DNA of 64,000 bases from Streptomyces sp. NBC_00461 (lineage in GTDB: Bacteria > Actinomycetota > Actinomycetes > Streptomycetales > Streptomycetaceae), in assembly GCF_036013935.1 (NCBI RefSeq), contig NZ_CP107902.1:8775001-8839000 (forward strand), written 5' to 3'. The notes beneath the pieces were generated by a model, which saw only the letters and a program-made list of their open reading frames with translations, ran no database searches and was not told the DNA's origin. Position 1 is the stretch's first letter, and each line of letters begins with the position of its first letter. Below are positions 27,150-53,023 of the stretch, in pieces. The translations under genes and the position numbers were made by a program.

Positions 27150-28589
27150 ATGACCATTGAGGTCACGCATGAGCAAGTGGTTGTGGAACACAGGCGTCCA
27201 CAAGGTCGCCGAAGACGTTGGGAACGGAAGTATCGGATCGTTCTGCTGGTCGCGGACGGCTTGGCAGCCGCTGCCGCGGCCTTCCTGATCCACGCTGCCT
27301 ACGGCCGCTGGGCGGTGGCCCTGGTACTGCCGCCGACCTGGATCCTGGCCATGCTGGCCCACCGCTCCTACGACCGCAGCACGCTGGGTCTGGGCACCGA
27401 GGAGTACCGACGGGTGCTGCGAGGCGCCGTCGCACTGCCGGCGCTGGCCGCGGTCGCGCACTGGCTGTTCACCCATGACTCGGGCCTCCTTCATGACATG
27501 ACCATGGCCGCGATCCCGGTGGCCGCGATCGCCCTGCCGGTCCGGTACCTGCTGCGCCGCCGGCTGCACAGACGGTGGGCGAGGGGCCGGGACCGCAGCG
27601 CGACGCTCCTGATCGGGCCGGCGAACGGCATCGTGGAGCTGGTCCGAGTGCTGCGGCGCGGCGGCACGCACGAACTGCAGGCCGTCGGCGTGTGTCTGAG
27701 CGACCCGGAAAACGCCGCGGAGGTACGCAAGTTGGGCCTCCCCGTCCTCGGCGGCTTCGGCGACATGAACGACGTCGTCCACGCCCTCGGCGTCAGCACC
27801 GTGGTGGCGCTGCCGGTTCCCGACTCCGATTTCTCCGCCCTGCGCCGGATGTCCTGGGCGGCGGCCGCACAGGGCGTCGACTTCCTGCTCGCCCCCGTAC
27901 TGGCCGACGTGTCCACCTCACGCCTGGCGGTACGGCCCACCAACGGGGTGCCGCTGGTGCGGATCAAGGCCCCCGACCTCTCGCGGACCTCCCGGGTGCC
28001 CAAGGAACTGCTGGACCGTTCCTTCGCGGGGGCGCTCCTGCTGCTCCTCGCGCTGCCCATGCTGCTGATCGCCCTGATCGTCCGGCTGGACAGTTCCGGG
28101 GCGGCACTCTTCCGGCAGCAGCGGGTGGGCCGGTACGGCGACCACTTCACCATGCTGAAGTTCCGCACGATGCGGCCGGACTCGGAGGCCCTGAGGGCAG
28201 AGCTGGAGCACCTCAACCAGAACAGCGACGGCCTGTTGTTCAAGGTGAGGAAGGACCCGCGGATCACCCGGGTCGGCTCGTTCCTCCGCCGCAGCTCGCT
28301 CGACGAACTGCCCCAGCTCATCAACGTCGCCCGGGGCCACATGTCGCTCGTCGGCCCCCGCCCGCCGCTGCCCGAGGAGGTCGAGGAGTACACGCCGGAC
28401 GTCAAGCGCCGGCTGCTCGTCAAGCCAGGGCTCACCGGACTGTGGCAGGTCAGCGGTCGTTCCGACCTGCCCTGGGACGAGGCGGTCCGGCTCGATCTCG
28501 GATACGTGGACAACTGGTCGATGGGCCTGGACCTGTCGATCCTGGCGCGCACCGGGTCCGCGGTGGTGCGAGGAACGGGGGCCTACTGA
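27150..28589 (+). CDS. Polyprenyl-phosphate sugar-1-phosphate transferase (polysaccharide initiation)
   Basis: 479 residues of the WcaJ/CpsE-type polyisoprenyl-phosphate hexose-1-phosphate transferase family. The N-terminal part has several membrane helices (VLLVADGLAAAAAAFLI, then around 50-130), then a CoA-binding-like domain. The C-terminal catalytic domain shows KELLDRSFAGALLLLL, RQQRVGRYGDHFTMLKFRTM, RRSSLDELPQLINVARG, SLVGPRPPLP, and VKPGLTGLWQVSGRS. It starts glycan assembly on the lipid carrier at the inner membrane face. First gene of a rightward operon; the ATG at 27150 follows a G-rich ribosome binding site. Confidence 0.9.
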   Translation: MTIEVTHEQVVVEHRRPQGRRRRWERKYRIVLLVADGLAAAAAAFLIHAAYGRWAVALVLPPTWILAMLAHRSYDRSTLGLGTEEYRRVLRGAVALPALAAVAHWLFTHDSGLLHDMTMAAIPVAAIALPVRYLLRRRLHRRWARGRDRSATLLIGPANGIVELVRVLRRGGTHELQAVGVCLSDPENAAEVRKLGLPVLGGFGDMNDVVHALGVSTVVALPVPDSDFSALRRMSWAAAAQGVDFLLAPVLADVSTSRLAVRPTNGVPLVRIKAPDLSRTSRVPKELLDRSFAGALLLLLALPMLLIALIVRLDSSGAALFRQQRVGRYGDHFTMLKFRTMRPDSEALRAELEHLNQNSDGLLFKVRKDPRITRVGSFLRRSSLDELPQLINVARGHMSLVGPRPPLPEEVEEYTPDVKRRLLVKPGLTGLWQVSGRSDLPWDEAVRLDLGYVDNWSMGLDLSILARTGSAVVRGTGAY

Positions 28590-29671
28590 TGGACCGAGAG
28601 AAGAAGAGGAACCAAGTGACTGAGACCACGCAGCCGTTGGGGGTCGCGGTCGTCGGGGCCGGCTACTGGGGCCCCAACCTCGTACGCAACTTCCAGGCCA
28701 GCGACCGGTTCCGGCTGCGCTGGCTGTGCGACCTCGACGTGGACCGGGCCCAGCGGGTCCTCGGCGGCTACTCGACGGTCCAGGCCACCGCCGACTACGC
28801 GGCCGTCCTCGCCGACCCCGACGTGGCAGCCGTCGCCGTGGCCACGCCCGCCGGCACCCACCTCGACATCGCCCTGGCCGCCCTGCGCGCCGGCAAGCAC
28901 GTCCTCGTGGAGAAGCCGCTGGCGGCGACCTACGCCGACGGGATGCGCCTGGTGGCCGAGGCGGAGGAGCGCGGCCTCACCCTGATGTGCGACCACACCT
29001 ACTGCTACACGCCCGCCGTGGGCCGCATCCGGGAACTGGTCCGCTCCGGCGAACTCGGCGAGATCCACTTCGTCGACTCGGTCCGCATCAACCTCGGGCT
29101 CGTCCAGAAGGACATCGACGTGATGTGGGACCTGGCCCCGCACGACCTGTCGATCCTGGACTTCATCCTCCCCGACAACGTCGAGCCCGTCGCCGTGGCC
29201 GCCCACGGGGCCGACCCGATCGGCGCCGGCCAGGCCTGCGTGGCCTACCTGACGCTCCAGCTCAACACCGGGGCCATCGCCCACGTGCACGTCAACTGGC
29301 TGTCGCCGACCAAGGTGCGCACCACCATGGTGGGCGGCTCCAAGCGCACCCTTGTCTGGGACGACCTCAACCCCGCCCAGCGCGTGGCCATCTTCGACCG
29401 GGGGGTGGACCTGGCCTCGCCGCAGGAGATCGGCGCGGACGAGCGCCGGGACATGCTCATCTCGTACCGCTCCGGCGACATGGTCGCGCCCGCCATCGGC
29501 GAGAAGGAAGCGCTGCGCAGCATGGTCGACGAGTTCGGCGACGCCATCAGAGCGGGCCGGGCGCCGCTGACCGACGGGCGGGCGGGCCTCAGGGTGCTGG
29601 ACATCCTTGAGGCGGCGTCCCGGAGTCTCGAATTCAAGGGCGCGGTCGTCGGCCTGCGCGCCGGGCGTTGA
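28589..29671 (+). CDS. Gfo/Idh/MocA sugar oxidoreductase
   Basis: About 360 residues: Rossmann motif VVGAGYWGPNLVRNF near 18-32 and the EKPLA motif of the family (VLVEKPLAATYADG), then the alpha/beta dimerisation domain. In amino-sugar pathways such enzymes (WbpB/WlbA type) oxidise the 3-OH of a UDP-sugar acid before an aminotransferase acts. The ATG at 28589 overlaps the previous stop as TGATG; a GTG at 28616 with AAGAGGA upstream is an alternative start nine codons in. Confidence 0.85.
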   Translation: MDREKKRNQVTETTQPLGVAVVGAGYWGPNLVRNFQASDRFRLRWLCDLDVDRAQRVLGGYSTVQATADYAAVLADPDVAAVAVATPAGTHLDIALAALRAGKHVLVEKPLAATYADGMRLVAEAEERGLTLMCDHTYCYTPAVGRIRELVRSGELGEIHFVDSVRINLGLVQKDIDVMWDLAPHDLSILDFILPDNVEPVAVAAHGADPIGAGQACVAYLTLQLNTGAIAHVHVNWLSPTKVRTTMVGGSKRTLVWDDLNPAQRVAIFDRGVDLASPQEIGADERRDMLISYRSGDMVAPAIGEKEALRSMVDEFGDAIRAGRAPLTDGRAGLRVLDILEAASRSLEFKGAVVGLRAGR

Positions 29672-29695
29672 CCGATCCGAACAGCTGAGAGGTAA

Positions 29696-30676
29696 GTGCA
29701 GTTGAGCAGCGTACGAGGCAAGAAGATCCTGGTCACCGGGGGAGCGGGCACCATCGGCTCCAACCTCGTCGACCTCCTGGCCGAGGGCGGCGCCCGCGAG
29801 ATCGTCGTACTCGACAACTTCGTGCGCGGACGGCGGGCCAACCTCGCGCGGGCCCTGCCCAGCGGCGTCGTGGAGGTCGTCGAGGGCGACGTCCGGGACG
29901 CCGAGACCGTTCGGAAGGTCACCGAGGGCGCCGACCTGGTGTTCCACCTCGCCGCCATCCGCATCACCCAGTGCGCGGAGGAGCCGCGGCTGGCCAACGA
30001 GGTCCTGGTCAACGGCACCTTCAACGTCCTGGAAGCGGCCGCGGAGGCCGGGGTCGCCAAGGTGATCGCCTCCTCCTCGGCGTCCGTCTACGGCATGGCC
30101 GAGACCTTCCCGACGACCGAGCGCCACCACCCGTACAACAACGACACCTTCTACGGCGCCGCCAAGGCCTTCAACGAGGGCATGCTGCGCAGCTTCCACG
30201 CCATGTACGGCCTGGACTACGTGGCGCTGCGCTACTTCAACGTCTACGGCCCCCGCATGGACATCCACGGCCTCTACACCGAGGTGCTCATCCGCTGGAT
30301 GGAACGCATCGAGGCGGGCGAGCCGCCGCTGATCCTCGGCGACGGCACACAGACCATGGACTTCGTCGACGTCCGCGACATCGCCAGAGCCAACGTGCTG
30401 GCCGCCGAGTCGGACCTCACCGACGAGGTGTTCAACATCGCCAGCGGCACGGAGACCTCGCTGAAGGAACTCGCCGAGGGGCTGCTGGAGGCGATGGGGG
30501 CCCAGGGCCTGGAGCCGGAGCACGGGCCCGCCCGCGCGGTGAACGGCGTGACCCGCCGCCTCGCGGACACCTCGCACGCCGCCGAACGCCTCGGCTTCAC
30601 CGCGCAGATCGACCTGCGCACCGGGCTGCGCGATCTGGTCGAGTGGTGGCGCGCGGAGCGGGAGGCGGCCAAGTGA
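29696..30676 (+). CDS. NAD-dependent epimerase/dehydratase (UDP-sugar epimerase-like)
   Basis: About 326 residues of the extended SDR family: ILVTGGAGTIGSNLVDLL NAD motif, FHLAAIRITQC, and the YGAAK active-site Tyr/Lys followed by RYFNVYGPRMDIHGLY. Closest in pattern to UDP-GlcNAc/UDP-glucose 4-epimerases of polysaccharide clusters. The GTG at 29696 has its ribosome binding site (GAGAGG) only three bases away, so TTG 29702, nine bases after it, is the likelier true start. Confidence 0.85.
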   Translation: MQLSSVRGKKILVTGGAGTIGSNLVDLLAEGGAREIVVLDNFVRGRRANLARALPSGVVEVVEGDVRDAETVRKVTEGADLVFHLAAIRITQCAEEPRLANEVLVNGTFNVLEAAAEAGVAKVIASSSASVYGMAETFPTTERHHPYNNDTFYGAAKAFNEGMLRSFHAMYGLDYVALRYFNVYGPRMDIHGLYTEVLIRWMERIEAGEPPLILGDGTQTMDFVDVRDIARANVLAAESDLTDEVFNIASGTETSLKELAEGLLEAMGAQGLEPEHGPARAVNGVTRRLADTSHAAERLGFTAQIDLRTGLRDLVEWWRAEREAAK

Positions 30677-31812
30677 GCACCGACCGCATCCCGGTGATGA
30701 TCCCCTGGCTCGGCGAGGAGGAGGCCGCCGCCGTCTCCGAAGCCGTCCTGTCCGGATGGGTCGCCCAGGGGCCGAGGGTCGCCGCCTTCGAGAAGGCCTT
30801 CGCCGAACGGGTGGGAGCCGAGCACGGCATCGCCGTCAGCTCCTGCACCACCGCCCTGCACCTGTCGCTCGTCGCACTCGGCCTCGGGCCCGGCGACGAG
30901 GTCGTGGTGCCCTCGCTGTCGTTCATCGCCACCGCCAACGCCGTCCGATACGTCGGCGCCGAGCCGGTGTTCGCCGACGTCGAGCCGGCCACCGGCAACC
31001 TGACTCCGGCCACCGTGGACGCGGTGCGCACCCCGCGTACCAAGGCCGTCCTCGCCGTCCACCAGGGCGGTGTACCGGCCGACGTGCACGCCCTGCGCGC
31101 CGCCTGCGCCGACTGGGACCTGCGCCTGGTCGAGGACGCGGCCTGCGCCATCGGCTCGACGGTGGGCGGCAAGCCCGTCGGCCACGGGGCGCTGCTCGCC
31201 GCCTGGTCCTTCCACCCGCGAAAGCTCGTCACCACGGGCGAGGGCGGAATGATCACCACGGACGACGCCGAGTGGGCGGCCCGCCTGCGCAGGCTGCGTG
31301 AGCACGGCATGAACGCCTCCGCGGCGGACCGCCACGCGAGCAACAAGCCGGTCCTGGAAAGCTACCTGGAAGTCGGCTTCAACTACCGGATGACCGACGT
31401 CCAGGCCGCGATCGGCCTGGTCCAGCTGGGCAGACTCGACGCGATGATCGCGCGCCGCCGCGAACTGGCGGCCCGCTACGACGACTTGCTGCACGACGTC
31501 CCCGGCCTCACCCCCGTACGCGATCCCGAGCACGGGCAGTCCAACTTCCAGTCCTACTGGGTGCTGCTGGACGAGGACTTCCCCGTCGGCCGGGACGACC
31601 TGCTCGCCGCGCTCGCCGAGGCCGGCGTCTCCGCCCGCCGCGGGATCATGGCCGCGCACCTCGAACCCGCCTACGCGGACCACCCGAGCGCACCGCTGCC
31701 GGTCACCGAACGGATCACCCGCCGCTCGCTGATTCTGCCCCTGTTCCACACCATGACCGAGGCCCAGCAGGACCGCGTCGTGACCGCACTGCGCGAACAG
31801 GCCCGAAGATGA
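30673..31812 (+). CDS. DegT/DnrJ/EryC1/StrS aminotransferase (first)
   Basis: 379 residues, PLP-dependent sugar aminotransferase. GVPADVHALRAACADWDLRLVEDAACAIG carries the PLP-ring Asp, and the Schiff-base Lys is in SFHPRKLVTTGEGGM. It converts a keto sugar nucleotide to an amino sugar, probably the product of the oxidoreductase or epimerase upstream. Start GTG 30673 overlaps the previous stop (GTGA). Confidence 0.9.
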   Translation: MSTDRIPVMIPWLGEEEAAAVSEAVLSGWVAQGPRVAAFEKAFAERVGAEHGIAVSSCTTALHLSLVALGLGPGDEVVVPSLSFIATANAVRYVGAEPVFADVEPATGNLTPATVDAVRTPRTKAVLAVHQGGVPADVHALRAACADWDLRLVEDAACAIGSTVGGKPVGHGALLAAWSFHPRKLVTTGEGGMITTDDAEWAARLRRLREHGMNASAADRHASNKPVLESYLEVGFNYRMTDVQAAIGLVQLGRLDAMIARRRELAARYDDLLHDVPGLTPVRDPEHGQSNFQSYWVLLDEDFPVGRDDLLAALAEAGVSARRGIMAAHLEPAYADHPSAPLPVTERITRRSLILPLFHTMTEAQQDRVVTALREQARR

Positions 31813-32528
31813 ACGAACTTGTCATCGTCGGCGCGGGCGGCTTCGCCCGGGAGACCGCACAGGCCGCCGCGGACGCGGGCGAGTACAAACTGCTCGGGCA
31901 CCTCGACGACAACCCCGCCCTGCACGGCACCGAGGTGGACGGCGTGCCCGTCCTCGGCGGCTGCGGCCTGGTCCACGACCTGCCCGAGGCCCGGGTGGTG
32001 ATCTGTGTGGGCAACCCCGGGGACTACGCGGCCCGCGCCCGCCTGGTCCGCAGGCTCGCTCTGCCCACGGACCGCTGGGCCACCGTGATCCATCCGACGG
32101 CGTCGGTGTCCGCGACGTCCGAAGTCGGCCCCGGCTCGGTGCTGCTCGCGCACTGCGCCCTGACCGCCGCCGTGCGGGTGGGCGCACATGTCGCCGTGAT
32201 GCCCCATGTCGTCCTCACCCATGACGACGTGGTCGAGGACTACGCCACGCTCGCCTCCGGCGTCCGCCTGGGCGGGGGAGCGCGGCTGGAACAGGGCGCC
32301 TATGCGGGCTCCGGAGCCCTGGTCAGGGAGGGTACGACGATCGGCGCCTGGTCGCTGGTCGGGATGGGGAGCGCAGTTCTCGGCGATGTACCGCCGGGCG
32401 AGGTCTGGGTGGGGAGCCCGGCCCGACGGCTGCGCGCCGCGCCCGCGCCCGCGCTGGACGAACTTGCGGCTGAACAGGACATGCGACGCGAACAGGACTC
32501 GCGACGCGAACAGTGGGGGGACCGCTGA
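31809..32528 (+). CDS. PglD/NeuD-like sugar acyltransferase
   Basis: 239 residues: N-terminal Rossmann-like part (LVIVGAGGFARETAQAAADAG) and a left-handed beta-helix of hexapeptide repeats in the second half (VGPGSVLLAHCALTAAVRVG, VEDYATLASGVRLGG). This is the PglD/NeuD architecture of N- or O-acetyltransferases that act on the amino sugar made by the preceding aminotransferase. Start overlaps its stop (ATGA). The C-terminal tail has a near-repeat QDMRREQDSRREQ. Confidence 0.87.
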   Translation: MNELVIVGAGGFARETAQAAADAGEYKLLGHLDDNPALHGTEVDGVPVLGGCGLVHDLPEARVVICVGNPGDYAARARLVRRLALPTDRWATVIHPTASVSATSEVGPGSVLLAHCALTAAVRVGAHVAVMPHVVLTHDDVVEDYATLASGVRLGGGARLEQGAYAGSGALVREGTTIGAWSLVGMGSAVLGDVPPGEVWVGSPARRLRAAPAPALDELAAEQDMRREQDSRREQWGDR

Positions 32529-32529
32529 C

Positions 32530-33648
32530 ATGAACCACATTCCGCTCGTGGACCTCAAGGCGGCCCACGAGGAGGTCGCCGACGAGGTACGCGCCGGATT
32601 CGAACGAATCCTGGCCAACACCGCGTTCGTAGGCGGCGACGAGGTCCGCCTCTTCGAGCGCGAATACGCCGACTTCGGCCGCGTCGGACACTGCGTGGGC
32701 GTCGCCAACGGCACCGACGCCGTCGAACTCGCCCTGCGCGCAAGCGGGGTCGGCCCCGGCGACGAGGTCGTGGTGCCCGCCAACACCTTCATCGCCACCG
32801 CGGGCGCGGTGGCGAGAATCGGTGCGCGACCGGTCCTGGTGGACTGCCTGCCCGACACCTTCCTGCTCGATCCGCAGGCCGCACTGGACGCGGTCGGACC
32901 CGCCACCCGCGCGGTCGTCCCCGTCCACCTCTACGGGCAGATGGCCGACGTGACGACGCTGACCGCCCAACTGCCCGGCCACGTACGGATCGTCGAGGAC
33001 GCGGCCCAGAGCCAGGGCGCGGCCCGGGACGGCCGGACGCCGGGCAGCGGCGGCATAGCGGCCACCAGCTTCTACCCGGGCAAGAACCTGGGCGCTTACG
33101 GCGACGCGGGCGCCGTGCTCACCGACGAAGAGGAACGCGCCGGCCTGGTACGCGCGATCGCCAACCACGGCGGAGTCGCCAAGTACCGCCACGACGTGCC
33201 CGGTTTCAACAGCCGCCTGGACGGACTGCAGGCCGTCGTCCTGCGCGCGAAGCTGGCCCGGCTGGCGGACGGCAACGCGGCCCGGCGGGCGGCCGCGGCC
33301 CGCTACGACGAGCTGCTCGCCGGCCTCGCGGCCACCGGCCGGATCGTGCTCCCGGCCACGGCACCCGGCAACCTCCACGTCTGGCACCTGTACGTCGTCC
33401 AGATCGCCGACGCCGACCGCGACGACGTCGTCGGCAAGCTCAACGCCGAGGGCATCGGCGCCGGCGTGCACTACCCCGCCCCGGTCCACCTCACCCCGGC
33501 GTACCGCCAACTCGACTACTCCCGCGGTGACTTCCCGAACGCCGAGAAGGCGGCGGACCGGATCCTGTCGCTGCCGCTGTACCCGCAGATCACCCATGAC
33601 CAGCAGCAACGCGTCGTGGAGTCGTTCACCGCCGCGCTCGGAAGCTGA
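32530..33648 (+). CDS. DegT/DnrJ/EryC1/StrS aminotransferase (second)
   Basis: 372 residues. PLP-binding features VEDAAQSQGA and the Lys in SFYPGKNLGAYGDAG, plus the family end HVWHLYVVQI and GIGAGVHYPAPVHL. It is clearly a different subgroup from the other aminotransferase of the operon (FYPGKNLGAYGD is the 3-amino sugar type, as in WbpE/FdtB/QdtB; the other has FHPRKLVTTGEGG). One base separates it from the previous stop. Confidence 0.9.
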   Translation: MNHIPLVDLKAAHEEVADEVRAGFERILANTAFVGGDEVRLFEREYADFGRVGHCVGVANGTDAVELALRASGVGPGDEVVVPANTFIATAGAVARIGARPVLVDCLPDTFLLDPQAALDAVGPATRAVVPVHLYGQMADVTTLTAQLPGHVRIVEDAAQSQGAARDGRTPGSGGIAATSFYPGKNLGAYGDAGAVLTDEEERAGLVRAIANHGGVAKYRHDVPGFNSRLDGLQAVVLRAKLARLADGNAARRAAAARYDELLAGLAATGRIVLPATAPGNLHVWHLYVVQIADADRDDVVGKLNAEGIGAGVHYPAPVHLTPAYRQLDYSRGDFPNAEKAADRILSLPLYPQITHDQQQRVVESFTAALGS

Positions 33649-33721
33649 CCGGTCCCCGGCGTTCCACGCACCATCCCCGGCTCCACGGGCCGGTCCAGCA
33701 CAGCACCGCTGAGAGGTACAC

Positions 33722-36700
33722 ATGAAAAGTTGGGGCAGACGGATCCGGGGCGGGCGCCTCGCCGTCGTAGCAGGACTGATATTGGCGGTGCTCCCGCTGG
33801 CCGGGTCGGCGCAGGCGGCGTCCGATCCGTGCGGGTCGGGCTCGAACCCCGTCGTCTGTGAGAACTCCAAGCCGGGCACCCCGAAGACCGACTGGTTCTC
33901 GCCCAACGCCTACGGTGACATCAAGGGCTTCTCCACCAAAGAGAGCGTCCAGGCGGGTGACACCGTCCAGTTCAAGGTCCAGTCGAAGACCTCGTACCAC
34001 GTCGAGATCTACCGTCTGGGCTGGTACGGCGGCGACGGCGCGCGCGAGATGTCGACCGCGGCCCAGGCGGCCGTGACCTACCCGGCCAACTACACGACCA
34101 AGCCCGCCAGTTGCACCACCAAGAGCGGTACCGGCCTGGTCGACTGCGGCAACTGGCCCGTGACCGTCAACTGGACCGTGCCCAGCGACGCCGTGTCCGG
34201 TCTCTACATCGCGAATCTGACACAGACCGACGGCGACGGCCTGATGCCGTACCCGTTCGTGGTCCGCAAGGACTCCAGCACCTCCGACGTCGTCGTGCAG
34301 ACCAGCGACGAGACCTGGCAGGCCTACAACGACTACGGCGGTCAGGACCTCTACGGCGGCACCGGGCCCGCCCCTGACGGCCGCGCCTACGAGGTCAGCT
34401 ACAACCGGCCGCTGGACATCGGCGGCGACAACGGCATCTACGGCTCCGAGTACATGATGCTGTCCTGGCTGGAGCGCAACGGCTACGACGTCAGCTACAC
34501 CTCCGGGGTGGACGTGTCGTCGTCGAGCGGCGCCACCCTGCTGAAGAAGCACAAGGTGTACCTGTCCTCCGGCCACGACGAGTACTGGACGCAGAGCCAG
34601 TACTCCAACGTCCTGGCGGCCCGCAAGGCAGGCGTCCGGCAGGGCTACTTCAGCGGCAACGAGGTCTTCTGGAAGACCCGGCTCACCCCCAGCATCGACG
34701 GCACGAACACGGCCGACCGCACCCTGGTCTGCTACAAGATGACCAAGATGGCGCAGAACAACGGCATCGCCGACCCCAGCGGCATCTGGACCGGCACCTG
34801 GATGGACCCGGCCAGTACCGGCTACGGGCAGGACTACCAGCCGCCGAACATCCTCACCGGCTCCATGTTCACGGTGAACGGCTACCGCAGCGACGCCATC
34901 ACCGTCCCCGGTTCCTACGGCAAGAACCGGATCTGGCGCAACACCTCCATCGCGAACCTGACGTCGAGCCAGACCGCCACCTTCCCGACGGGCACGCTCG
35001 GCTACGAGTGGGACAGCGACATCGACAACAGCACCCGGCCCGCCGGGGCGATCGACGTGTCCTCCACGACGGTGGACATCAACGACGCCAAGCTCCGCAT
35101 GGACTGGGGCAACGTCTACGGCAACGGCACGGCGACGCACAACCTCGTCGAGTTCCGCGACCAGGACTCCGGCGCCCTGGTGTTCGGGTCGGGGACCGTG
35201 CAGTGGTCGTGGGGCCTGACCAACGTCCCGACCTACAACCCCGACGACACGGTGGTCACCGAGGACTCCCGGATGCAGCAGGCCACGCTGAACGTCCTCG
35301 CCGACATGGGCGTCCAGCCGCTGACCCGGCAGAGCAACCTCGTCGCCGCGACGGCCTCCACCGACACCACCGGCCCGTCCGTCACCGTGACGAGCCCGGC
35401 CTCCGGGGTCACCGTCCCGGCGCTGAAGCCGGTCACCATCAAGGGCACCGCCTCCGACTCCGGCGGTGCGGTGGCCCGCGTGGAGGTGTCCACGGACGGC
35501 GGATCAACCTGGAAGGCCGCCACCGGCCTCACCTCCTGGAGCTTCAGCTGGACCCCGACGACGCCGGGACCGGCGTCGGTCAAGGTCCGCGCGGTCGACG
35601 ACAGCGTCAACATCGGCTCCGTCACCACCGTCCCGCTGGCCGTCGGCCCCCAGGCCTGCCCCTGCACCGTCTGGCCGGCCTCGGCCGTGCCCGGCACCGT
35701 CAACGCGGGTGACGGCAGCTCCCTGGAACTCGGCGTCAAGTTCCGCACCACCGTGGCCGGTTCCATCACCGGTGTCCGCTTCTACAAGTCGCCCGCCAAC
35801 ACCGGCACTCACACCGGCAGCCTGTGGACCGCCTCCGGCACCCGCCTGGCCACCGGCACCTTCAGCGGCGAGACGGCCTCGGGCTGGCAGCAGCTGAACT
35901 TCGCCACCCCGGTCACCGTCAAGGCCAACACCACTTACGTCGCCTCCTACTTCGCCCCCAACGGCGGATACTCCTACGACGGCGGCTACTTCAACGACGG
36001 CGCCGCGGGCCTGGCCCCGCTCACCGCACTCAAAACCGGCACCGACGGCGGCAACGGCGTCTTCCACTACGGCTCGACCAGCGCCTTCCCGTCCTCGCAG
36101 TCCTCGGGCAGCAACTACTGGGTCGACGTGGTGCTGGACACCTCGACGGCCAGTACGACCCCGCCCACCGTCAGCTCGACCTCCCCGACGTCCGGGGCGA
36201 CGGGCACATCGATCACGGCACCGGTCTCGGCCACCTTCAGTTCGGCGGTCGACCCCGACAGTGTGACGTTCACCGTGAAGGACCCGGACGGCGCCACCGT
36301 GCCGGGGGCGGCCACGCTGCCCGCGTCGAACAAGGTGACCTTCACTCCGTCGACGGAGCTGGAGCTGCACACCACGTACACCGCCTCCATCCAGGCCTCC
36401 GACGTGTGGGGCAACGCCATGGCGGACCCGGTGACCTGGTCCTTCACGACCAGTTCCACCCCGCCCGCGGTCACCTGCCCCTGCACGCTGTGGAGTTCGT
36501 CCGCCGTGCCGGCCACACCCGACACGACCGGTGACACCAACTCCCTGGAGCTGGGCACTCGCTTCACGTCCTCGGCGGACGGCTGGATCACCGGCGTCAC
36601 GTTCTACAAGGGCACCGGCAACACGGGCACCCACACCGGCAGCCTGTGGACCGACGGCGGCACGCTGCTGGCCGGCGGCACCTTCACCAACGAGACGGCC

Positions 36701-39124: not shown

Positions 39125-39195
39125 ACGAGTTCCTTCCGTCACTCCCGATACTGGCAGGACGCGCGGTGGGATGCCACCGAAAGGAGGGACGCATC

Positions 39196-46369: not shown

Positions 46370-47539
46370 TCATATGGGGAACGTTCGTTTCGTGGGTCTC
46401 GGCTGTTCGATGGTGCTCGGTCGGATGCCGGTGCTCGGCCGGTCGGTCGGTCTCGGCCGGGTGGTCGCGGTGCCTCCCTCCAGCAGCACGTCGGCGATGC
46501 GGTCGCTCGCGCGGCCGTCCCACAGGTCGGGCCGGCGCGGCGCGGGCGGCACGTCCAGCACCGCGTTCACGGTGGCCACGATCCGTGCTGGATCCCGGCC
46601 GGCCAGCACGTTGGTGCCCTGCTCGACGGTGATGGGGCGCTCGGTGTTGTCCCGCAGGGTCACGCACGGCACGCCCAGCGCGGTGGTCTCCTCCTGCACA
46701 CCACCGGAGTCGGTCAGCACCACGCGAGCGGAGTCCTGCAGGGCGATGAAGTCCAGATACCCGGCGGGCGGCACGAGGCGGACGCCCCCGGGCACACCGA
46801 TCTCGGCCAGCCTTCCGGCCGCGCGCGGGTGCACGGGCAGCAGGAGCGGGCAGCGGCCTGCGATCTCGCCCAGGGCCTTCAGGAGCCCGGCGAGCACCTC
46901 CGGATCGTCCACGTTGGCGGGCCGGTGCAGCGTGACCAGGCCGAACTCGCCCCTGGACAGGCCGTATCGATGGAGGATGTCCGAGGCGCGGGCCCGTTCC
47001 AGGTTGGCCAGCAGCGTGTCGATCATGACGTTGCCGACCAGATGGATCTGGTCCTCCCGGTACCCCTCCGCGCGCAGGTTCACGGCGGCGTCGGGGGAGG
47101 GGGCCAGCAGGTAGTCGCTGACCCGGTCGGTGGCGACCCGGTTGACCTCCTCCGGCATGCCCCAGTCGCGGCTGCGCAGACCGGCCTCGACATGGGCCAG
47201 CAGCGGCCCTGCCTTGGCGGTCACCAGGGCGCAGGCCAGCGTGGAGTTGATGTCACCGACCACCACCACGATGTCCGGCGACAACTCCTCCAGGAGCGGC
47301 TCGAACGCGGTCATCACCCGCCCGGTCTGCTCGGCGTGGGAGCCGGAGCCGACCCCGAGGAAACGGTCGGGCGGGCGGATGCCGAGGTCGGTGAAGAACA
47401 CGTCGTTCATGGCCGGGTCGTAGTGCTGGCCGGTATGGACGAGGAACACCTCGGCGCCCCGGCGTTCCAGGGCGTCCATCACCGGTTTGATCTTCATGTA
47501 GTTCGGTCGCGCCCCGGCGACGCACACGATGCGCGGCAT
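46370..47539 (-). CDS. wecB: UDP-N-acetylglucosamine 2-epimerase (non-hydrolysing)
   Basis: 389 residues. VAGARPNYMKIKPVMDAL start, HTGQHYDPAMND, HVEAGLRSRDW, TDSGGVQEETTALGVPC, and RDNTERPITVEQGTN are all characteristic. It interconverts UDP-GlcNAc and UDP-ManNAc. It lies three bases after the dehydrogenase gene stop, in the order WecG-WecC-WecB on one message. The last 30 residues (GTATTRPRPTDRP and on) are a low-complexity extension. Confidence 0.92.
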   Translation of the reverse strand: MPRIVCVAGARPNYMKIKPVMDALERRGAEVFLVHTGQHYDPAMNDVFFTDLGIRPPDRFLGVGSGSHAEQTGRVMTAFEPLLEELSPDIVVVVGDINSTLACALVTAKAGPLLAHVEAGLRSRDWGMPEEVNRVATDRVSDYLLAPSPDAAVNLRAEGYREDQIHLVGNVMIDTLLANLERARASDILHRYGLSRGEFGLVTLHRPANVDDPEVLAGLLKALGEIAGRCPLLLPVHPRAAGRLAEIGVPGGVRLVPPAGYLDFIALQDSARVVLTDSGGVQEETTALGVPCVTLRDNTERPITVEQGTNVLAGRDPARIVATVNAVLDVPPAPRRPDLWDGRASDRIADVLLEGGTATTRPRPTDRPSTGIRPSTIEQPRPTKRTFPI

Positions 47540-47542
47540 GGC

Positions 47543-48802
47543 TCAGAGCACCTCGATCGTGGGTCCGGACGGCAGCCGTCTGCGGCAGTCGAGAACGAAG
47601 GGGGCGTGCTCGGCGATGAGTTCGTAGTCGAAGCTGTCGTGGTCGGTGAGCAGGACCACCACGTCGGCGGCCGCCAGCTCCTTGGGTGTCGGTTCGACCC
47701 GGACCAGCCGGTTGTCCACCGGCAGGCCCTCGACGACATGCGGGTCCGCGGCCCTGACCTGGGCCCCCATGTCGAGCAGCAGCCGGGAGATGCGCAGGGC
47801 GGGCGACTCGCGGGCGTCGCCAGTGTTCTTCTTGTACGCCAGACCGAGCAGCAGGATCCGCGAGCCGTTCACGGAACGGCGCCGGTCGTTGAAGAGGTCG
47901 CCGATCCGGCGCGCCACGTACTCGGGCATGTGGTTGTTGATGTCGTTGGCCAGCTCCACGAAGCGGAAGCTCTGGCCGAGTTCGCGCTGCACGCGCCAGG
48001 AGAGGTAGGAGGGGTCGATCGGCAGGCAGTGGCCGCCGACACCCGGTCCGGGCGTGAACTTCATGAACCCGAACGGCTTGGTGGAGGCCGCGTCGATGGC
48101 CTGCCAGACGTCGATGTCCAGGTGGTGGGCGAACATCGCGATCTCGTTGACCAGCGCGATGTTCACATGCCGGAAGGTGTTCTCCAGCAGCTTGGCGAGT
48201 TCGGCCTCCTTGGGCGAACCCACTGGCACGACGGTGTCGACGAGTTGCCCGTAGAAGTCCTGAACGGCCTTGAGGGACGTCTCGTTGACACCGGAGACGA
48301 CCTTCGGGGTCTGCTGGAAACCCCACACGGCGTTCCCGGGATCGATCCGCTCCGGGCTGTAGCCGAGGTGGAAGTCGCTGCCCGCGACCAGGCCCGAGCC
48401 CTCCTCCAGGATCGGCGCGAACAGCTCCTGGGTGGTGCCCGGGTAGGTCGTCGACTCCAGGACGACCGTCGCTCCGGGGCGCAGGTAGCGGGCGAGGGTG
48501 ACCGCCGACTCCCTGATGTACCGCAGGTCCGGCGTGCCCTCGTGCAGCGGGGTCGGCACGGTCACGACGGCGATGTCGAAACCGCCGCAGTCGCGCGCCG
48601 ATTCGCTCGGGCGGTAGCTGCCGTTGTCCAGTGCCGCCCGGATCCGCTCGGACGACACGTCCTCGACGAAGGACTCACCGGCGGCAAGGCTCTTGATCCG
48701 CCGGGCGTCGACGTCGTAGCCGATCACCTCGTGTCCGACCTCGGCTGCCCGAACGGCCAGGGGCAGGCCGACGTATCCCTGTCCGACCACGACGACACGC
48801 AT
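47543..48802 (-). CDS. wecC: UDP-N-acetyl-mannosamine/glucosamine 6-dehydrogenase
   Basis: 419 residues of the UDP-glucose/GDP-mannose dehydrogenase family. VVVVGQGYVGLPLA NAD motif, STTYPGTTQ, the lysine/Asn block AKLLENTFRHVNIALVNE, the catalytic Cys in GPGVGGHCLPIDP, and LLGLAYKKNTGDARESPA. It oxidises C6 twice to give a UDP-uronic acid, most likely UDP-ManNAcA given the neighbour WecB. A WbpA-like role on UDP-GlcNAc cannot be excluded. TGATG overlap with the upstream glycosyltransferase gene. Confidence 0.9.
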   Translation of the reverse strand: MRVVVVGQGYVGLPLAVRAAEVGHEVIGYDVDARRIKSLAAGESFVEDVSSERIRAALDNGSYRPSESARDCGGFDIAVVTVPTPLHEGTPDLRYIRESAVTLARYLRPGATVVLESTTYPGTTQELFAPILEEGSGLVAGSDFHLGYSPERIDPGNAVWGFQQTPKVVSGVNETSLKAVQDFYGQLVDTVVPVGSPKEAELAKLLENTFRHVNIALVNEIAMFAHHLDIDVWQAIDAASTKPFGFMKFTPGPGVGGHCLPIDPSYLSWRVQRELGQSFRFVELANDINNHMPEYVARRIGDLFNDRRRSVNGSRILLLGLAYKKNTGDARESPALRISRLLLDMGAQVRAADPHVVEGLPVDNRLVRVEPTPKELAAADVVVLLTDHDSFDYELIAEHAPFVLDCRRRLPSGPTIEVL

Positions 48803-49572
48803 CAGTGACTCCTGTTCGCGGGGGCGGCCGACGGGGTGGGCCGGATCAGCTCGCGCGCCGTCATGAGGAGGAAGGAGAGATTGGTGGTGAGGTAGCGCCG
48901 GCCCAGGCGGCGCGGCTCCTGCAGCGCGCGGTAGAGCCACTCAAGGCCCCACCGCTGCCAGGAGACCGGAGCCCGCTTGGTGACCCCGGCCAGGATGTCG
49001 AAGGAGCCGCCGACCCCGTGCACCACGCGGGCGCCCGTGCGGGCGCCGTGGGCGGCGGTGAAGATCTCCTTCTTCGGCGAGGTCATGCCAAGGAACAGCA
49101 TGTGGGCGCCGCTTCGCGCGATGCCGTCCGCGATCGGCTCCTGCTCCAGGTCGTCGAAGTAGCCGTTGCGGCTGCCGGCCACCTTCAGGCCGGGGAAGCG
49201 GTCGGCCACCTGGAGGAGCATCTGCTCCAGCACGTCCTGCTTGGCGCCGAGGAAGTACACGGGGATGCCCGACGTCTCCGCCTCGGCCAGCAGCCGCAGG
49301 AACAGGTCGATTCCGGCCACCCGCTCCGGCAGGGGCGCACGCAGCACCCGGCCGGCCCACACCACGGCCTGTCCGTCGGCGAGGACGAGATCACAACCCG
49401 CCACGGCCTTGGCGAGCCGGTCGTTGCGCCGCATGTTCACCAGCTTCGCGGCGTTGACCACCCCGATCTCCAGCTGCCGGCCGTCCCGCACCGCCGCCAG
49501 GCAGCGCTGCACGGTCTCGTCCATGGTCAGCGGGTCCAGCTCGACCCCGAACAGCGTCCGACGCCCGCTCAT
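48802..49572 (-). CDS. wecG: WecG/TagA/CpsF glycosyltransferase (ManNAcA transferase-like)
   Basis: 256 residues, GT26 family. VVNAAKLVNMRRNDRL, the catalytic VLADGQAVVWAGRVL (residues about 63-77), FLGAKQDVLEQM, RNGYFDD, FLGMTSPKKE, and VGGSFDILAG define it. In enteric bacteria WecG adds ManNAcA to GlcNAc-PP-undecaprenol; TagA adds ManNAc in teichoic acid. With WecB and WecC directly downstream, ManNAcA transfer is the best guess. ATG 49572 overlaps the previous stop as ATGA. Confidence 0.88.
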   Translation of the reverse strand: MSGRRTLFGVELDPLTMDETVQRCLAAVRDGRQLEIGVVNAAKLVNMRRNDRLAKAVAGCDLVLADGQAVVWAGRVLRAPLPERVAGIDLFLRLLAEAETSGIPVYFLGAKQDVLEQMLLQVADRFPGLKVAGSRNGYFDDLEQEPIADGIARSGAHMLFLGMTSPKKEIFTAAHGARTGARVVHGVGGSFDILAGVTKRAPVSWQRWGLEWLYRALQEPRRLGRRYLTTNLSFLLMTARELIRPTPSAAPANRSH

Positions 49573-50732
49573 ATTCGGCCCCCCTGCCAGGCGTAGAGCA
49601 TCCAGCCGAACTCGTACGGCCGGCATTCGCGATCCACGGACAGCGGGCGGTACACCCGGTCCAGGGACTTCAGCCGCAGGCCCGGAGCGACCCGGGTGGA
49701 CAGACCCCGGGCGGCGCGTACGGCCTTCTTCGGGTCGCCCCGGTAGACCTTGCGCCAGGTGGCACCGAGCTCGTCGAGGATCATGGGCTCCCGGTGCTGC
49801 GAGCCGGCCAGTTCGGGTACGTCCGTCATCCAGCGCAGGCCCTTGCGGATCGCCGCGCCGAAGTCGGTGCCGCCGGCGTCGGCGAGGTCGAACAGCGCGG
49901 TCGGCGCCATCGCGTGCTGGTGGACGCTGTAGACCGGGTAGCCCTCCACGACACCGCCGGTGCGCGCGTCGTAGTGCCACCACCACTGGCCGCCTTCGCC
50001 CTGCAGCTCGCAGATGCGCGCCGCGCACGCCTCGGACGCGGCCAGCGCCTCCGGGTCGCCGTCCCCGCTGGCGTGGGCGCGGGCCAGGGCCTGCAGCGGA
50101 TAGGTCTGGTCGGCGAAGCAGCTCACATGCGCCCGGTACCAGGGCACCAGACCGGGTGCGGTGGCGTGCGGGAACAGCGGACTGTTTCCGATCCGGGCTC
50201 GCAGCAGACGGTCCCGGGCCGCGGTGAAACGTCTCTCCACGTCGACCGTGTCACGAGCCGCCGCGAGGGCGGACAGCACCCACGCCGCCTCGACGGTGTA
50301 CTGGGGCTGGCCCGCCACGTTCAGTGCCTCGACCCGGTCGAGGGCGTCGGACAGTTTGGGATGTTCGGTCTCGGCGGCGGCCCAGGCGATGAGCGCCGCG
50401 TCGCCGAGGTTGGTCACCGCGGGCAGCGACTCGACGAGCAGACCCGCGAACTCCTCGGCCGTACGCCCGCCGAGCACCGCGCGCTGGCGGTCCTCGGGGA
50501 GGTACCGGGCACCCAGGACGGTGATGGCGGCGTAGCGGGTGCTGGTGCCACGCCGTTCCAGGGTCCAGGAGCCATCGGGGGCTTGCCGCCCGGCCATGGT
50601 GTGGACGAAGGCCTCCCCGCCGGGGAGCAGCATGGACGGCAGCCCCGACTCGGCGACTGCGAGCAGCCGTTGGGCGAGTGCGAGCAGCGGCGGGTCCTCG
50701 TCACCGAGTGCCGCGAGACGTGTGTTGGTCAT
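49569..50732 (-). CDS. Alpha/alpha-toroid protein of unknown function
   Basis: 387 residues, no signal peptide and no membrane helix. Repeated helical pairs with Trp- and His-rich turns (APDGSWTLERRGTSTRYAA, GEGGQWWWHYDARTGGVVEGYPVYS, QHAMAPTALFDL) suggest an (alpha/alpha)6 toroid like those of glycoside hydrolases, lyases or terpene cyclases. I do not recognise a catalytic motif or family. It is translationally coupled (ATGA) to the WecG-like gene and is first in the wecG-C-B run, so it likely serves the same polymer. Upstream, 50733-50985 (253 bp) carries no gene and probably its promoter. Confidence 0.7.
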   Translation of the reverse strand: MTNTRLAALGDEDPPLLALAQRLLAVAESGLPSMLLPGGEAFVHTMAGRQAPDGSWTLERRGTSTRYAAITVLGARYLPEDRQRAVLGGRTAEEFAGLLVESLPAVTNLGDAALIAWAAAETEHPKLSDALDRVEALNVAGQPQYTVEAAWVLSALAAARDTVDVERRFTAARDRLLRARIGNSPLFPHATAPGLVPWYRAHVSCFADQTYPLQALARAHASGDGDPEALAASEACAARICELQGEGGQWWWHYDARTGGVVEGYPVYSVHQHAMAPTALFDLADAGGTDFGAAIRKGLRWMTDVPELAGSQHREPMILDELGATWRKVYRGDPKKAVRAARGLSTRVAPGLRLKSLDRVYRPLSVDRECRPYEFGWMLYAWQGGRI

Positions 50733-50985
50733 CGGTTGGACACACCAACCCCCTGATTTCGCGCAGAGTTGTGAGCGCCGCGACACGGACGGCCGGGCGG
50801 TGGAGGCAAGGCGGACGTCAGGCCTCGGAGCGGATGCCGCTCCTCGTTTCAGACACAGGTGTTCCCACCCGGTAACCCCCCCTGGGCACTACTGGTTCGT
50901 GTGCCCATTGTGCTTGGGCTGCACAGTTCGTACACATGTTATGCCGGTGAATGTTCGAAGATTTGCGATTTGGCGGAAACCTGAG

Positions 50986-51585
50986 TCATGCGCGTTCGAC
51001 GAGTTCGCCGTCCTTCTCGTCGTGCAGCGCGCCCGTCTCGGGGCACTCCCACGTACCCGGTTCGCCGTCCCGCTCGACCAGTCGTACGCCGGCCCGGCCG
51101 ACCCAGCCGATCCGGCGCGCCGGAACCCCGGCCACCAGGGCGAAGTCCGGCACGTCCCGGGTGACCACGGCACCTGCCGCGACCATCGCCCAACGGCCGA
51201 CACGCACCGGCGCGACACACACCGAGCGGGCCCCCAGCGAGGCTCCCTCGGCCACCGTCACCGCCACGGCCTCCCAGTCGTCACCGCGCTTCAACCTGCC
51301 CTGCGGGTCCACGGAACGGGGGAAGTAGTCGTTGGTGAGGACGGCCGCCGGGCCGACGAACACCCCGTCACCGAGGACCGCGGGTTCGTATACCAACGCG
51401 TAGTTCTGGAGCTTCACGTGATCGCCGATCCGGACACCGGGGCCGACATACGCCCCGCGGCCCACGATGCACCCGCTGCCCAGCCGTGCGTCCTCCCGGA
51501 TCTGGGCCAGATCCCAGACCGTCGTTCCGTCGCCGACCGTGGCACTGTCGTCGACCTGGGCGGTCGGCTGCATCTTGAAGCTCAC
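50986..51585 (-). CDS. WbpD/FdtC-type hexapeptide N-acetyltransferase
   Basis: 199 residues of left-handed beta-helix: QPTAQVDDSATVGDGTTVWD, GRGAYVGPGVRIGDHVKLQNYA, FVGPAAVLTNDYFPRS, and AVVTRDVPDFALVAGVPARR. This is the family of UDP-3-amino-GlcNAcA N-acetyltransferase (WbpD) and dTDP-3-amino sugar acyltransferases (FdtC/QdtC). A C-terminal 40-residue extension carries two Cys/His-poor strands. Start GTG 51585 overlaps the stop of the truncated rml ORF (GTGA). Confidence 0.85.
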   Translation of the reverse strand: MSFKMQPTAQVDDSATVGDGTTVWDLAQIREDARLGSGCIVGRGAYVGPGVRIGDHVKLQNYALVYEPAVLGDGVFVGPAAVLTNDYFPRSVDPQGRLKRGDDWEAVAVTVAEGASLGARSVCVAPVRVGRWAMVAAGAVVTRDVPDFALVAGVPARRIGWVGRAGVRLVERDGEPGTWECPETGALHDEKDGELVERA

Positions 51586-51959
51586 CGGGCTGAACCTTTC
51601 TTCTCGTCGAGCAGAACCGGAGACGCCGCCGCGGGCGCCTCGCGCAAGGGGCGGATGCGGTCGATTCCTGCCAAGCGCAGGTGCTCGTGCCGCACGTGCG
51701 ACTCGGCGGCGAAGTGGACGACCTGGTCGTGTTCGGCCGTCAGTTTTCCGGCCAGTTGGGGGTCGCAGATGTCGCCCTGGACGAACGCGAAGCCGGGGTG
51801 GTCGCGTACCTGGTCGAGGTTGGCCGGGTTGCCGGCGTAGGTGAGCTTGTCCAGGACGGTGATCGCCACATCCCCCGGGCCCTGCGGGCCGAGCAGGGTG
51901 CGGACGTAGTGGGAGCCGATGAAACCGGCACCGCCGGTCACCAGGATTCTGGTTGTCAT
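51582..51959 (-). pseudogene. rmlB: Truncated RmlB (dTDP-glucose 4,6-dehydratase) with foreign tail
   Basis: 125 residues against about 325 in intact RmlB. The first about 90 are normal (ILVTGGAGFIGSHYVRTLL, TVLDKLTYAGNPANL, VHFAAESHV), then the sequence leaves the family right where DRS should follow, and lacks the YxxxK active site. The tail LRLAGIDRIRPLREAPAAAS resembles the C-terminus of RmlD (dTDP-4-keto-rhamnose reductase), so an internal deletion joining rmlB to the end of rmlD is likely (inference). It cannot be active as a dehydratase. It overlaps rmlA at 51956-51959 and the acetyltransferase downstream. Confidence 0.75.
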
Positions 51960-53023
51960 GAGGAGATCTGCACCTTGCTGTGATCGCCGAGGACGAAACG
52001 GTGGGCGGCCGGCCTGCGAGGCGCGGGAGTCACCTCGACGTTGCGGCCGATGAGCGAGGCCTCCACCCGTCGGACGCCGCTGACCGAGGAATCACGCAGC
52101 ATGATCGAGTACTCGATCTCGCTGTCCTGGATCCGGCAGTCGTCGGCGATCGAGGTGAAGGGGCCGACATAGGAGTCGGTGATCACGGTGTTCGCGCCGA
52201 CGACAGCCGGGCCCACGATCCGGCTGCCCGTCACCTTCGCCCCGGCTTCCACGCGCACCCGGCCGATGAGTTCGCTGTGATCGTCCACCGTTCCGTCGAC
52301 CCTGCGCTCCAGGGTCTCCAGGACGGAGCGGTTGACCTCCAGCATGTCGCTGACGTTCCCGGTGTCCTTCCAGTACCCGGAGATCATCGTGGAACGCACA
52401 TCACGTCCGGCGTCGATCATCCACTGCAGGGCGTCAGTGATCTCCAGCTCGCCGCGCCCGGACGGCTTGATCGAGCGCACGGCCTCATGCACGGCCGGGG
52501 TGAAGAGATAGACGCCCACCAATGCCAGGTCGCTCTTGGGGTGCCTGGGTTTCTCCTCCAGGCCGACCACCCGGCCGGCCGCGTCCAGCTCGGCCACCCC
52601 GAACGCGGTCGGGTTCGCCACCTTCGTCAACAGGATCTGCGCTTGAGGCCGCTCGGTGCGGAAGCCGTCCACCAGATCCGTGATGCCACCGACGACGAAG
52701 TTGTCACCGAGGTACATCACGAAGTCGTCCTCGCCCAGGAACTCACGGGCGATCAGCACCGCATGGGCCAGCCCCAGGGGCGCGGTCTGCGGGATGTAGG
52801 TGGCGTCGAGGCCGAACGCGGAACCGTCGCCGACCGCCTCCCGGATCTCCTCGGCCGTGTCCCCGACGATGATCCCGACCTCCGTGATGCCCGCCTCTGC
52901 GATCGCCTCCAGACCGTAGAAAAGCACCGGTTTGTTGGCGACCGGTACGAGTTGTTTCGCCGACGTATGAGTGATGGGGCGCAAACGGGTACCTGAGCCA
53001 CCGGACAACAGGAGTGCCTTCAC
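51956..53023 (-). CDS. rmlA: Glucose-1-phosphate thymidylyltransferase (long, StrD-type)
   Basis: 355 residues: the nucleotidyl-transferase motif GGSGTRLRPIT (8-18), KQLVPVANKPVLFYGLE, YLGDNFVVGG, and FGVAELDAAGRVVGLEEKP, then a C-terminal beta-helix with hexapeptide-like repeats (about 245-355). The extended form, like StrD/GraD, differs from the short RmlA. It makes dTDP-glucose. Start GTG 53023. The promoter spacing suggests a leaderless message. Its normal next partner rmlB is broken in this locus. Confidence 0.9.
   Translation of the reverse strand: MKALLLSGGSGTRLRPITHTSAKQLVPVANKPVLFYGLEAIAEAGITEVGIIVGDTAEEIREAVGDGSAFGLDATYIPQTAPLGLAHAVLIAREFLGEDDFVMYLGDNFVVGGITDLVDGFRTERPQAQILLTKVANPTAFGVAELDAAGRVVGLEEKPRHPKSDLALVGVYLFTPAVHEAVRSIKPSGRGELEITDALQWMIDAGRDVRSTMISGYWKDTGNVSDMLEVNRSVLETLERRVDGTVDDHSELIGRVRVEAGAKVTGSRIVGPAVVGANTVITDSYVGPFTSIADDCRIQDSEIEYSIMLRDSSVSGVRRVEASLIGRNVEVTPAPRRPAAHRFVLGDHSKVQISS

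Follow-up and report, generated by a model that had tools for sequence, protein, structure and literature searches.

Which glycan is made by the polysaccharide locus at positions 27150-53023 of a stretch of Streptomyces sp. NBC_00461 DNA, and is its machinery that of the enterobacterial common antigen (ECA)? The stretch, hereafter the window, comprises 64,000 nucleotides and lies at positions 8,775,001-8,839,000 on one contig of 10.37 Mb; its genes were called by codon-position GC and named through comparison with Pfam, NCBIfam and the PDB. A first-pass annotation, made from the letters without database searches, had read the locus as an ECA-like system built around N-acetylmannosaminuronic acid (ManNAcA). 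All the gene families it named are present, the two Wzz calls among them being weak, and its broader proposal of a Wzx/Wzy-type polysaccharide with an aminouronic acid is supported by what follows, whereas ECA as a system is not. From gene content, synteny, co-occurrence and the residue class of the epimerase, all of which are read directly, we infer the donors, the linkages and the fate of the polymer. With a probability of roughly 0.6, the locus is Wzx/Wzy-dependent and directs the synthesis of an acidic heteropolysaccharide, surface-bound or secreted, which would draw on an N-acetylmannosamine (ManNAc) or ManNAcA donor and on a 3-acetamido sugar donor.

The three components that together characterize a Wzx/Wzy-dependent locus are all encoded here: an initiating polyprenyl-phosphate hexose-1-phosphate transferase of the EPS_sugtrans family (27150-28589, plus strand; PF02397, 211 bits; TIGR03025, 372 bits against a cut-off of 296), a Wzx flippase (43969-45492, minus; PF13440, 182 bits) and a Wzy-type polymerase (39166-41211, plus; Wzy_C, PF04932, 57.8 bits). 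Two Wzz-like proteins, of which the first is a chain-length protein by name, lie at 38462-39142 and 45464-46318, both on the minus strand. Glycosyltransferases of the GT2 type (PF00535) occur at 37398-38444 (plus, 94 bits), 41208-42107 (plus, 51 bits) and 42111-42902 (minus, 58 bits), with a fourth at 25930-26865 (minus, 57.6 bits) that probably forms the left part of the locus. In the scheme that we propose, the PF02397 enzyme would load the polyprenyl carrier with the first sugar phosphate and WecG would extend the chain together with as many as four GT2s; Wzx would then flip the repeat and Wzy would polymerize it. Counting the initiator, WecG and the four GT2s, the repeat would hold at most about six sugars.

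The heart of the locus is a minus-strand run from 50786 to 42111, in which an unnamed toroid protein, wecG, wecC, wecB, a Wzz-like gene, wzx, a β-helix lipoprotein and a GT2 succeed one another at spacings of -4, -1, 3, 51, -29, -4 and 11 bases. The coupled wec message posited earlier holds: the gene at 49569-50786 shares 4 bases with wecG, wecG shares 1 with wecC, and a gap of 3 separates wecC from wecB. A plus-strand block (27150-33648) specifies the initiator, a Gfo/Idh dehydrogenase, a short-chain dehydrogenase/reductase (SDR), a C4-type DegT aminotransferase (AT4), a PglD-type acyltransferase and a C3-type DegT aminotransferase (AT3). Between block and run lie a large DMFA2_C/DUF4082 secreted protein, GT2s, the second weak Wzz and Wzy. 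Several of these genes go beyond the first-pass inventory, namely the Gfo/Idh (28589), the SDR (29696), the GT2s (25930, 37398, 41208 and 42111), the β-helix lipoprotein, the DMFA2_C/DUF4082 protein (33722), the toroid protein and a remnant of rmlB.

The first donor would be UDP-ManNAcA (or UDP-ManNAc), which the WecB- and WecC-like enzymes would form and WecG would probably transfer. The WecB-family protein (46370-47539, minus) is a non-hydrolysing UDP-GlcNAc-type 2-epimerase (TIGR00236, 296 bits, cut-off 210). In UDP-GlcNAc epimerases a conserved arginine binds the C3 hydroxyl, and in the Thermus thermophilus enzyme acting on UDP-GlcNAc3NAcA (the 2,3-diacetamido uronic acid) this arginine is replaced by Trp307, with Ala18 and Tyr96 alongside (PMC10622841). 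In an alignment, the places of Ala18, Tyr96 and Trp307 read M-H-R in Escherichia coli WecB and I-V-R (Ile17, Val94, Arg301) in the window. Across 392 Streptomyces genomes, epimerases fall into three tiers: group 1, 35 genomes at 82-95% identity, the window included; group 2, 25 genomes at 48-53%; and group 3, 43 matches in 42 genomes at 40-47%. Most of the fetched loci of the last tier we call Utr-like from their gene order, after a system described in Streptomyces griseus, a species that was not fetched by name. The arginine is kept in all 88 group 1 rows (some of which represent one genome reached twice) and in 9 of 9 distant relatives. Group 2 shows A-Y-R in 14 of 14, and the Tyr-Trp pair occupies 19 of 21 group 3 rows, including all 17 whose locus shows a WbpD-type acetyltransferase, the other two (L094 and L104) being L-Q-R. 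Because Arg301 is kept, the substrate expected for the window epimerase is a sugar whose C3 hydroxyl is unsubstituted, and this residue class supports a ManNAc/ManNAcA step. With Val94 rather than His or Gln, the C6 of that sugar may or may not be oxidized already. The group 2 enzymes, which combine A-Y-R with a dehydrogenase and no WbpD within 20 kb, may act on UDP-GlcNAcA; some of their loci (for example L077) place the WecB/WecC pair next to large proteins that match known families weakly or not at all.

The two enzymes encoded upstream of the epimerase in the same run are a WecC-family UDP-HexNAc 6-dehydrogenase (47543-48802, minus; TIGR03026, 405 bits, cut-off 190), whose nearest PDB chain, 4r16 (240 bits), was deposited as a hypothetical UDP-ManNAcA dehydrogenase, and a WecG/TagA/CpsF glycosyltransferase (48802-49572, minus; TIGR00696, 149 bits, cut-off 69). 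A second WecG/TagA-family gene is found near the contig end, at G000:C1:10111496-10112005 (10.11 Mb; L002, L003), in another putative polysaccharide region.

The toroid protein (49569-50786, minus) is bound to this enzyme set by its neighborhood. A relative of it is encoded in 306 genomic stretches; among the best 80, its gene adjoins wecG in all 80 and the order toroid-WecG-WecC-WecB is whole in 77, reaching the Micromonosporaceae. The hosts of these 80 include Streptomyces, Streptacidiphilus, Actinacidiphila, Actinoplanes, Virgisporangium, Planosporangium, Spirilliplanes, Allorhizocola, an Actinoallomurus metagenome-assembled genome and others. A phylum-wide genome search recovered the protein in 2 of 396 genomes, though the named Micromonosporaceae loci exist, and we draw no inference from that figure. 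Its structural model, of moderate confidence and with residues 247-271 and 304-386 below a pLDDT (predicted local distance difference test) of 50, adopts an (α/α)6 fold whose nearest neighbors are GH76 and the 2-epimerases. Since His, Asp, Glu and Trp residues are near-invariant (at least 98.5%) across 79 aligned sequences and the model has this fold, the protein is probably an enzyme of some kind. Fold scores give it no name, GH76, 2-epimerases, GH88/105 and terpene cyclases being too close to one another, and Foldseek returned no match at an E value of 0.001 or better for this model or for that of the β-helix protein.

The second donor would be a 3-acetamido sugar, most likely GlcNAc3NAcA or its manno counterpart ManNAc3NAcA, made via the Gfo-type dehydrogenase (28589-29671, plus; PF01408, 93.7 bits), AT3 (32530-33648, plus) and a WbpD/WlbB-type N-acetyltransferase (50986-51585, minus). 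C3 aminotransferases need a 3-keto sugar, and a Gfo-type dehydrogenase would supply it in the manner of WbpB/E and GnnA/B. The PDB neighbors of AT3 are DesV (302 bits), QdtB (290) and WbpE (256), which we take to be C3 aminotransferases; the NSRLD and HYP stretches are common to all three and do not distinguish a UDP- from a dTDP-sugar enzyme. No 3,4-ketoisomerase family appeared in Pfam scans of the locus, and the Gfo dehydrogenase, a probable sugar C3 dehydrogenase, is there; its best NCBIfam model is the archaeal UDP-GlcNAc 3-dehydrogenase (146 bits, below the cut-off of 450). The acetyltransferase has 3mqg as its nearest solved structure (140 bits) and is 74-81% identical to the protein in the UtrJ position of 17 Utr-like loci.

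The phyletic pattern of this set follows that of the epimerase. A Gfo orthologue (E 1e-100) is found in 35 of the 392 Streptomyces genomes, exactly those with a group 1 epimerase, kinship being ignored in this count; in G012 the two genes lie 3.3 Mb apart, yet both are present. A WbpD-type gene lies within 20 kb of the epimerase in 35/35 group 1 genomes, 0/25 of group 2 and 32/43 group 3 matches. Of 17 genomes whose loci are distant or rearranged, 15 retain Gfo at 67-89% identity, all 17 retain AT3 at 62-80%, and 15 retain WbpD at no less than 65% (once in two pieces). The Gfo-to-AT3 block sometimes lies elsewhere in the genome in these distant loci, and seven of the 17 genomes (G779, G781, G783, G784, G787, G788 and G789) have WbpD no more than about 3 kb from Gfo. 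Because of this co-occurrence and retention, Gfo, AT3 and WbpD would be part of the same product and no accidental neighbors; the shared 35 genomes and the likeness of the acetyltransferase to the Utr-like one together make it probable that the locus also makes a 3-acetamido sugar.

Conservation of the whole was scored by tblastn in 20 relatives, that is, 40 kb around 20 of the 35 group 1 epimerase genes, the window's own excluded. WecB, WecC, WecG, the toroid protein, WbpD and the first Wzz are present in all 20. The SDR, AT4, PglD, AT3, the DUF4082 protein, the GT2s at 37398, 41208 and 42111, the second Wzz, Wzy, the β-helix protein and Wzx are each present in 19, as is Gfo (cut by the fetch edge in two), and the sole relative without the SDR-to-Wzx genes nearby is the G012 copy. 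The core from SDR to WbpD is thus held together beyond chance, in 19/20 relatives, and the cassette, a conserved group of some twenty genes, occurs in about 9% of the sampled Streptomyces genomes (35/392).

Further sugars are suggested by the remainder of the plus-strand block. AT4 (30673-31812, plus; PF01041, 393 bits) has ArnB, TlmJ and perosamine synthase as its PDB neighbors, which makes a 4-acetamido sugar likely; together with the PglD/NeuD-type N-acyltransferase (31809-32528, plus; TIGR03570, 188 bits, cut-off 161) it would probably add such a residue to the repeat. The extended SDR (29696-30676, plus; PF01370, 189 bits) is probably a UDP-sugar 4-epimerase and would contribute a C4-epimerized sugar: its PDB neighbors are mostly 4-epimerases, and it lacks the dehydratase acid, the motif SSSASVYG, presumably a 4-epimerase rather than a dehydratase pattern, being found in 21/21 orthologues of more than 70% identity. 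The 4-keto donor of AT4 could come from RmlB copies elsewhere in the genome, where two score over the cut-off. In the window, rmlB is a remnant (51582-51959, minus) matching, at 51690-51950, model positions 1-87 of 321. In some relatives (L121, L122, L174 and others) the acetyltransferase gene has RmlA, an RmlB-like SDR and a third gene, encoding about 285-343 residues, as neighbors, and the rmlB region of the window reads as the decayed remains of that arrangement. The RmlA counted earlier among the ECA-like genes is indeed encoded, a long-form glucose-1-phosphate thymidylyltransferase (51956-53023, minus; TIGR01208, 462 bits, cut-off 320); found in 5/20 relatives, it is an edge gene and no part of the core.

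Several observations weigh against the preferred assignment. The initiator was present in six relatives (two cut), not reached in nine and not near the G012 copy; in 4 of 10 judgeable loci (G083, G074, G134 and G054; L049, L050, L052 and L055) it is absent between the flanking GT2 and Gfo, so that initiation is not always local. Both Wzz calls fall below the PF02706 cut-off of 25.5 (22.2 bits at 38462, 20.4 at 45464). Among equivalog models, the window WecC scores best on the ManNAc-dehydrogenase model, below its cut-off; the same holds for the Utr-like dehydrogenase, which by the proposed Utr route should take UDP-GlcNAc, so these scores do not separate ManNAc from GlcNAc oxidation. The WecC tree sets the window with group 2 and not with Utr, at a support of 90/88 that is not decisive. 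In the distant genomes, G786 has no WbpD match and G778 one at 52% only, while G785 has no Gfo match and G782 one at 42% only. Gfo is 28-30% and the aminotransferases are 33-42% (best of the window's two) identical to their Utr-like counterparts, and their substrates may differ from those. Finally, if the SDR is an epimerase, the 4-keto source of AT4 lies outside the locus.

How the two donors relate can be drawn in several ways. A forked pathway is a tentative suggestion: WecC would make UDP-GlcNAcA, the common substrate of two branches. The Val94/Arg301 epimerase would turn it into UDP-ManNAcA, whereas the trio of Gfo, AT3 and UtrJ-like acetyltransferase would turn it into UDP-GlcNAc3NAcA, so that two different amino-uronic acids would enter one polymer and the toroid protein would be a new sugar-active enzyme.

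Amination might instead follow epimerization, WecB and WecC yielding UDP-ManNAcA, which Gfo, AT3 and WbpD would convert to UDP-ManNAc3NAcA, a known sugar reached by a different order of steps. This agrees with the arginine signature and the all-or-none co-occurrence, but the closeness of WbpD to the UtrJ-position enzyme, whose substrate should be gluco at C2, tells against it, and we regard it as unlikely. Just as doubtful is a route free of ManNAcA, in which WecB and WecG would serve ManNAc transfer in the fashion of TagA/TarA while WecC, Gfo, AT3 and WbpD would make UDP-GlcNAc3NAcA. The closest solved relative of WecG, 7mpk (151 bits), is a ManNAc transferase, and S. griseus has GlcNAc3NAcA at the reducing end of its polymer (PMC13274773). 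However, 77 of the best 80 toroid loci keep WecB, WecC and WecG together, and of two models that WecG matches below cut-off, that of E. coli WecG (140 bits) fits it slightly better than that of TarA (128).

Distinctly improbable is the linear WbpA-B-E-D-I route of Pseudomonas, also proposed for Utr, whereby UDP-GlcNAc would be oxidized, 3-aminated, acetylated and only then 2-epimerized to UDP-ManNAc3NAcA. All five families are present, the co-occurrence with Gfo is obligate, the WbpD-type enzyme resembles that of the UtrJ position as given above, and in overall score the epimerase is as close to 8sxy, the T. thermophilus UDP-GlcNAc3NAcA epimerase (271 bits), as to the Methanocaldococcus jannaschii UDP-GlcNAc enzyme (278), both well above E. 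coli WecB (134). Nevertheless, the Trp of the enzyme that acts on the 3-acetamido substrate is replaced here by Arg301, with Arg in 97/97 orthologue rows against Trp in 19/21 group 3 rows, and the residue test largely rejects this complete route, which we had initially favored.

As to ECA itself, we compared 12 E. coli K-12 (NC_000913) ECA proteins with 31 window proteins by blastp (E 0.01). The likeness seen at first holds for WecB (33% identity), WecC (31%) and WecG (35%), and for the Wzx/Wzy scheme; the initiator family, the polymerase and the other transferases differ. In this search WecA, RffC/WecD, WzxE, WzyE and WzzE had no match and WecF matched WecC alone, over 90 residues. WecE and RffH find the common aminotransferase and RmlA families, the window aminotransferases being 31-33% identical to WecE, and RffG finds the SDR at 29%. 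WecB exceeds its equivalog cut-off, WecC and WecG fall below theirs, and AT4 scores 169 bits on the ECA_wecE model (cut-off 435). The initiator is PF02397, not the PF00953 of WecA, whose three genomic representatives lie at 2.61, 5.35 and 6.70 Mb against 8.78-8.84 Mb for the window; the dTDP-Fuc4NAc branch (RmlA, RmlB, WecE, WecD) with WecF is incomplete in the locus. Gene order also differs, and the window adds the 3-amino set. Hence GlcNAc-ManNAcA-Fuc4NAc repeats, for which the WecB, WecC and WecG homologues, the aminotransferases, the acyltransferase and RmlA would speak, are very improbable in view of these absences, no convincing WecF, the broken RmlB, the sporadic RmlA and the additional Gfo/AT3/WbpD set. 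The locus shares one sugar-making step with ECA and is otherwise a different system.

Among the closest described systems is Utr of S. griseus (Zhao et al. 2025, PMC13274773). It makes a GalNAc-ManNAc3NAcA polymer that carries GlcNAc3NAcA at its reducing end; growth is proposed to take place on ribitol phosphate, and L21 and L27 are the anchor genes of the locus. Most fetched group 3 loci show the utrA-E order with a divergent utrF-J or a variant of it (for example L086), and several adjoin genes of about 106, 84 and 478 residues resembling L21, L27 and Obg. A UtrJ-type acetyltransferase was seen in 17 of 21; L094, L104, L105 and L112 have none in the stretch, the first three lacking Gfo there too, and L112 is a short contig. 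Window and Utr share the genus and the aminotransferase, Gfo oxidase, UDP-sugar dehydrogenase, 2-epimerase and N-acetyltransferase families. They differ in that the Utr genes A-J are described without initiator, Wzx or Wzy ('Wzx' being absent from the text of PMC13274773) and in gene order, the window's being unlike utrA-E/utrF-J beside L21 and L27. Moreover, the Utr-type epimerase has a Trp signature where the window has Arg301, and the other four enzymes are about 28-46% alike; against Utr-like loci the dehydrogenase reaches 32-35% and the epimerase 40-46%. The ManNAc3NAcA pathway of Pseudomonas and Bordetella (WbpA-B-E-D-I, WlbA-D) has five enzyme families in common with the window, by families alone, and the window epimerase has a residue class unlike that of the T. 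thermophilus enzyme of that activity. Micrococcus luteus teichuronic acid, a ManNAcA-Glc repeat (PMC3005890), is likewise an actinobacterial amino-uronic acid polymer, but a two-sugar wall polymer, compared here by its chemistry. The wps-1 cluster of Actinoplanes missouriensis (PMC13390465) is an actinomycete Wzx/Wzy locus with a WecG-family transferase; it differs in its two sulfotransferase genes and other genes, and its authors suggest galactofuranose and glucose.

Several accompanying genes deserve mention. The lipoprotein at 42914-43972 (minus; LTAGC lipobox by eye) is modeled as a right-handed parallel β-helix. An alginate lyase is its best match, with an adhesin nearly tied, and since lyases, epimerases, adhesins and tailspikes are almost level the fold does not assign it. 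A polysaccharide lyase or epimerase is possible, and the protein may trim the polymer; it is consistent with a uronic acid polymer and no proof of one. The secreted protein at 33722-37324 (plus; 1200 residues) has DMFA2_C, Ig-like and two DUF4082 domains by Pfam; it is kept in the polysaccharide locus of 19/20 relatives and recurs in two Micromonosporaceae loci (L184, L185) at 45-48%, with no role evident. No LytR-CpsA-Psr gene lies in the window, and ten occur elsewhere in the genome, so the polymer may or may not be attached to the wall. On the left, the GT2 at 25930 has a tblastn match in 6/20 relatives, the fetched stretch stopping short of it in most others, and its homologue adjoins that of the 41208 GT2 in four Actinoplanes loci (L186, L188, L190 and L191). 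Beyond it, an MFS transporter and a PD40 β-propeller protein (23543-25905) may be part of the system; several loci (L150, L152, L153, L174, L186, L188 and L190) have homologues of them next to the toroid gene or close by. On the right, adjoining RmlA, the protein at 53014-55359 combines a weak membrane-dipeptidase (M19) match with a discoidin-like domain and has no match among the gene calls of the 20 relatives.

A comparable polymer had been announced as new for Gram-positives, which is too strong, given ManNAcA in M. luteus (PMC3005890) and a ManNAc3NAcA polymer in S. griseus (PMC13274773). Polymers of both sugars in actinobacteria and Wzx/Wzy loci in Actinoplanes are known already; of this gene cassette we found no description in the open-license PMC literature searched. 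It raises a question of enzymology, the order of epimerization, oxidation and amination, and includes a toroid protein, as yet without a name, that accompanies a known glycosyltransferase. Streptomyces surface glycans are receptors of umbrella toxins, and toxin-sensitive species exist without a recognizable teichuronic acid locus (Zhao et al., PMC13274773). A second WbpD/UtrJ-like gene occurs in 1 of the 35 cassette genomes, while 81 of the other 357 hold such a gene (hypergeometric P 0.002, kinship ignored). Because cassette genomes so rarely hold a second gene of this kind, the cassette is a candidate for one of the other glycans of those sensitive species.

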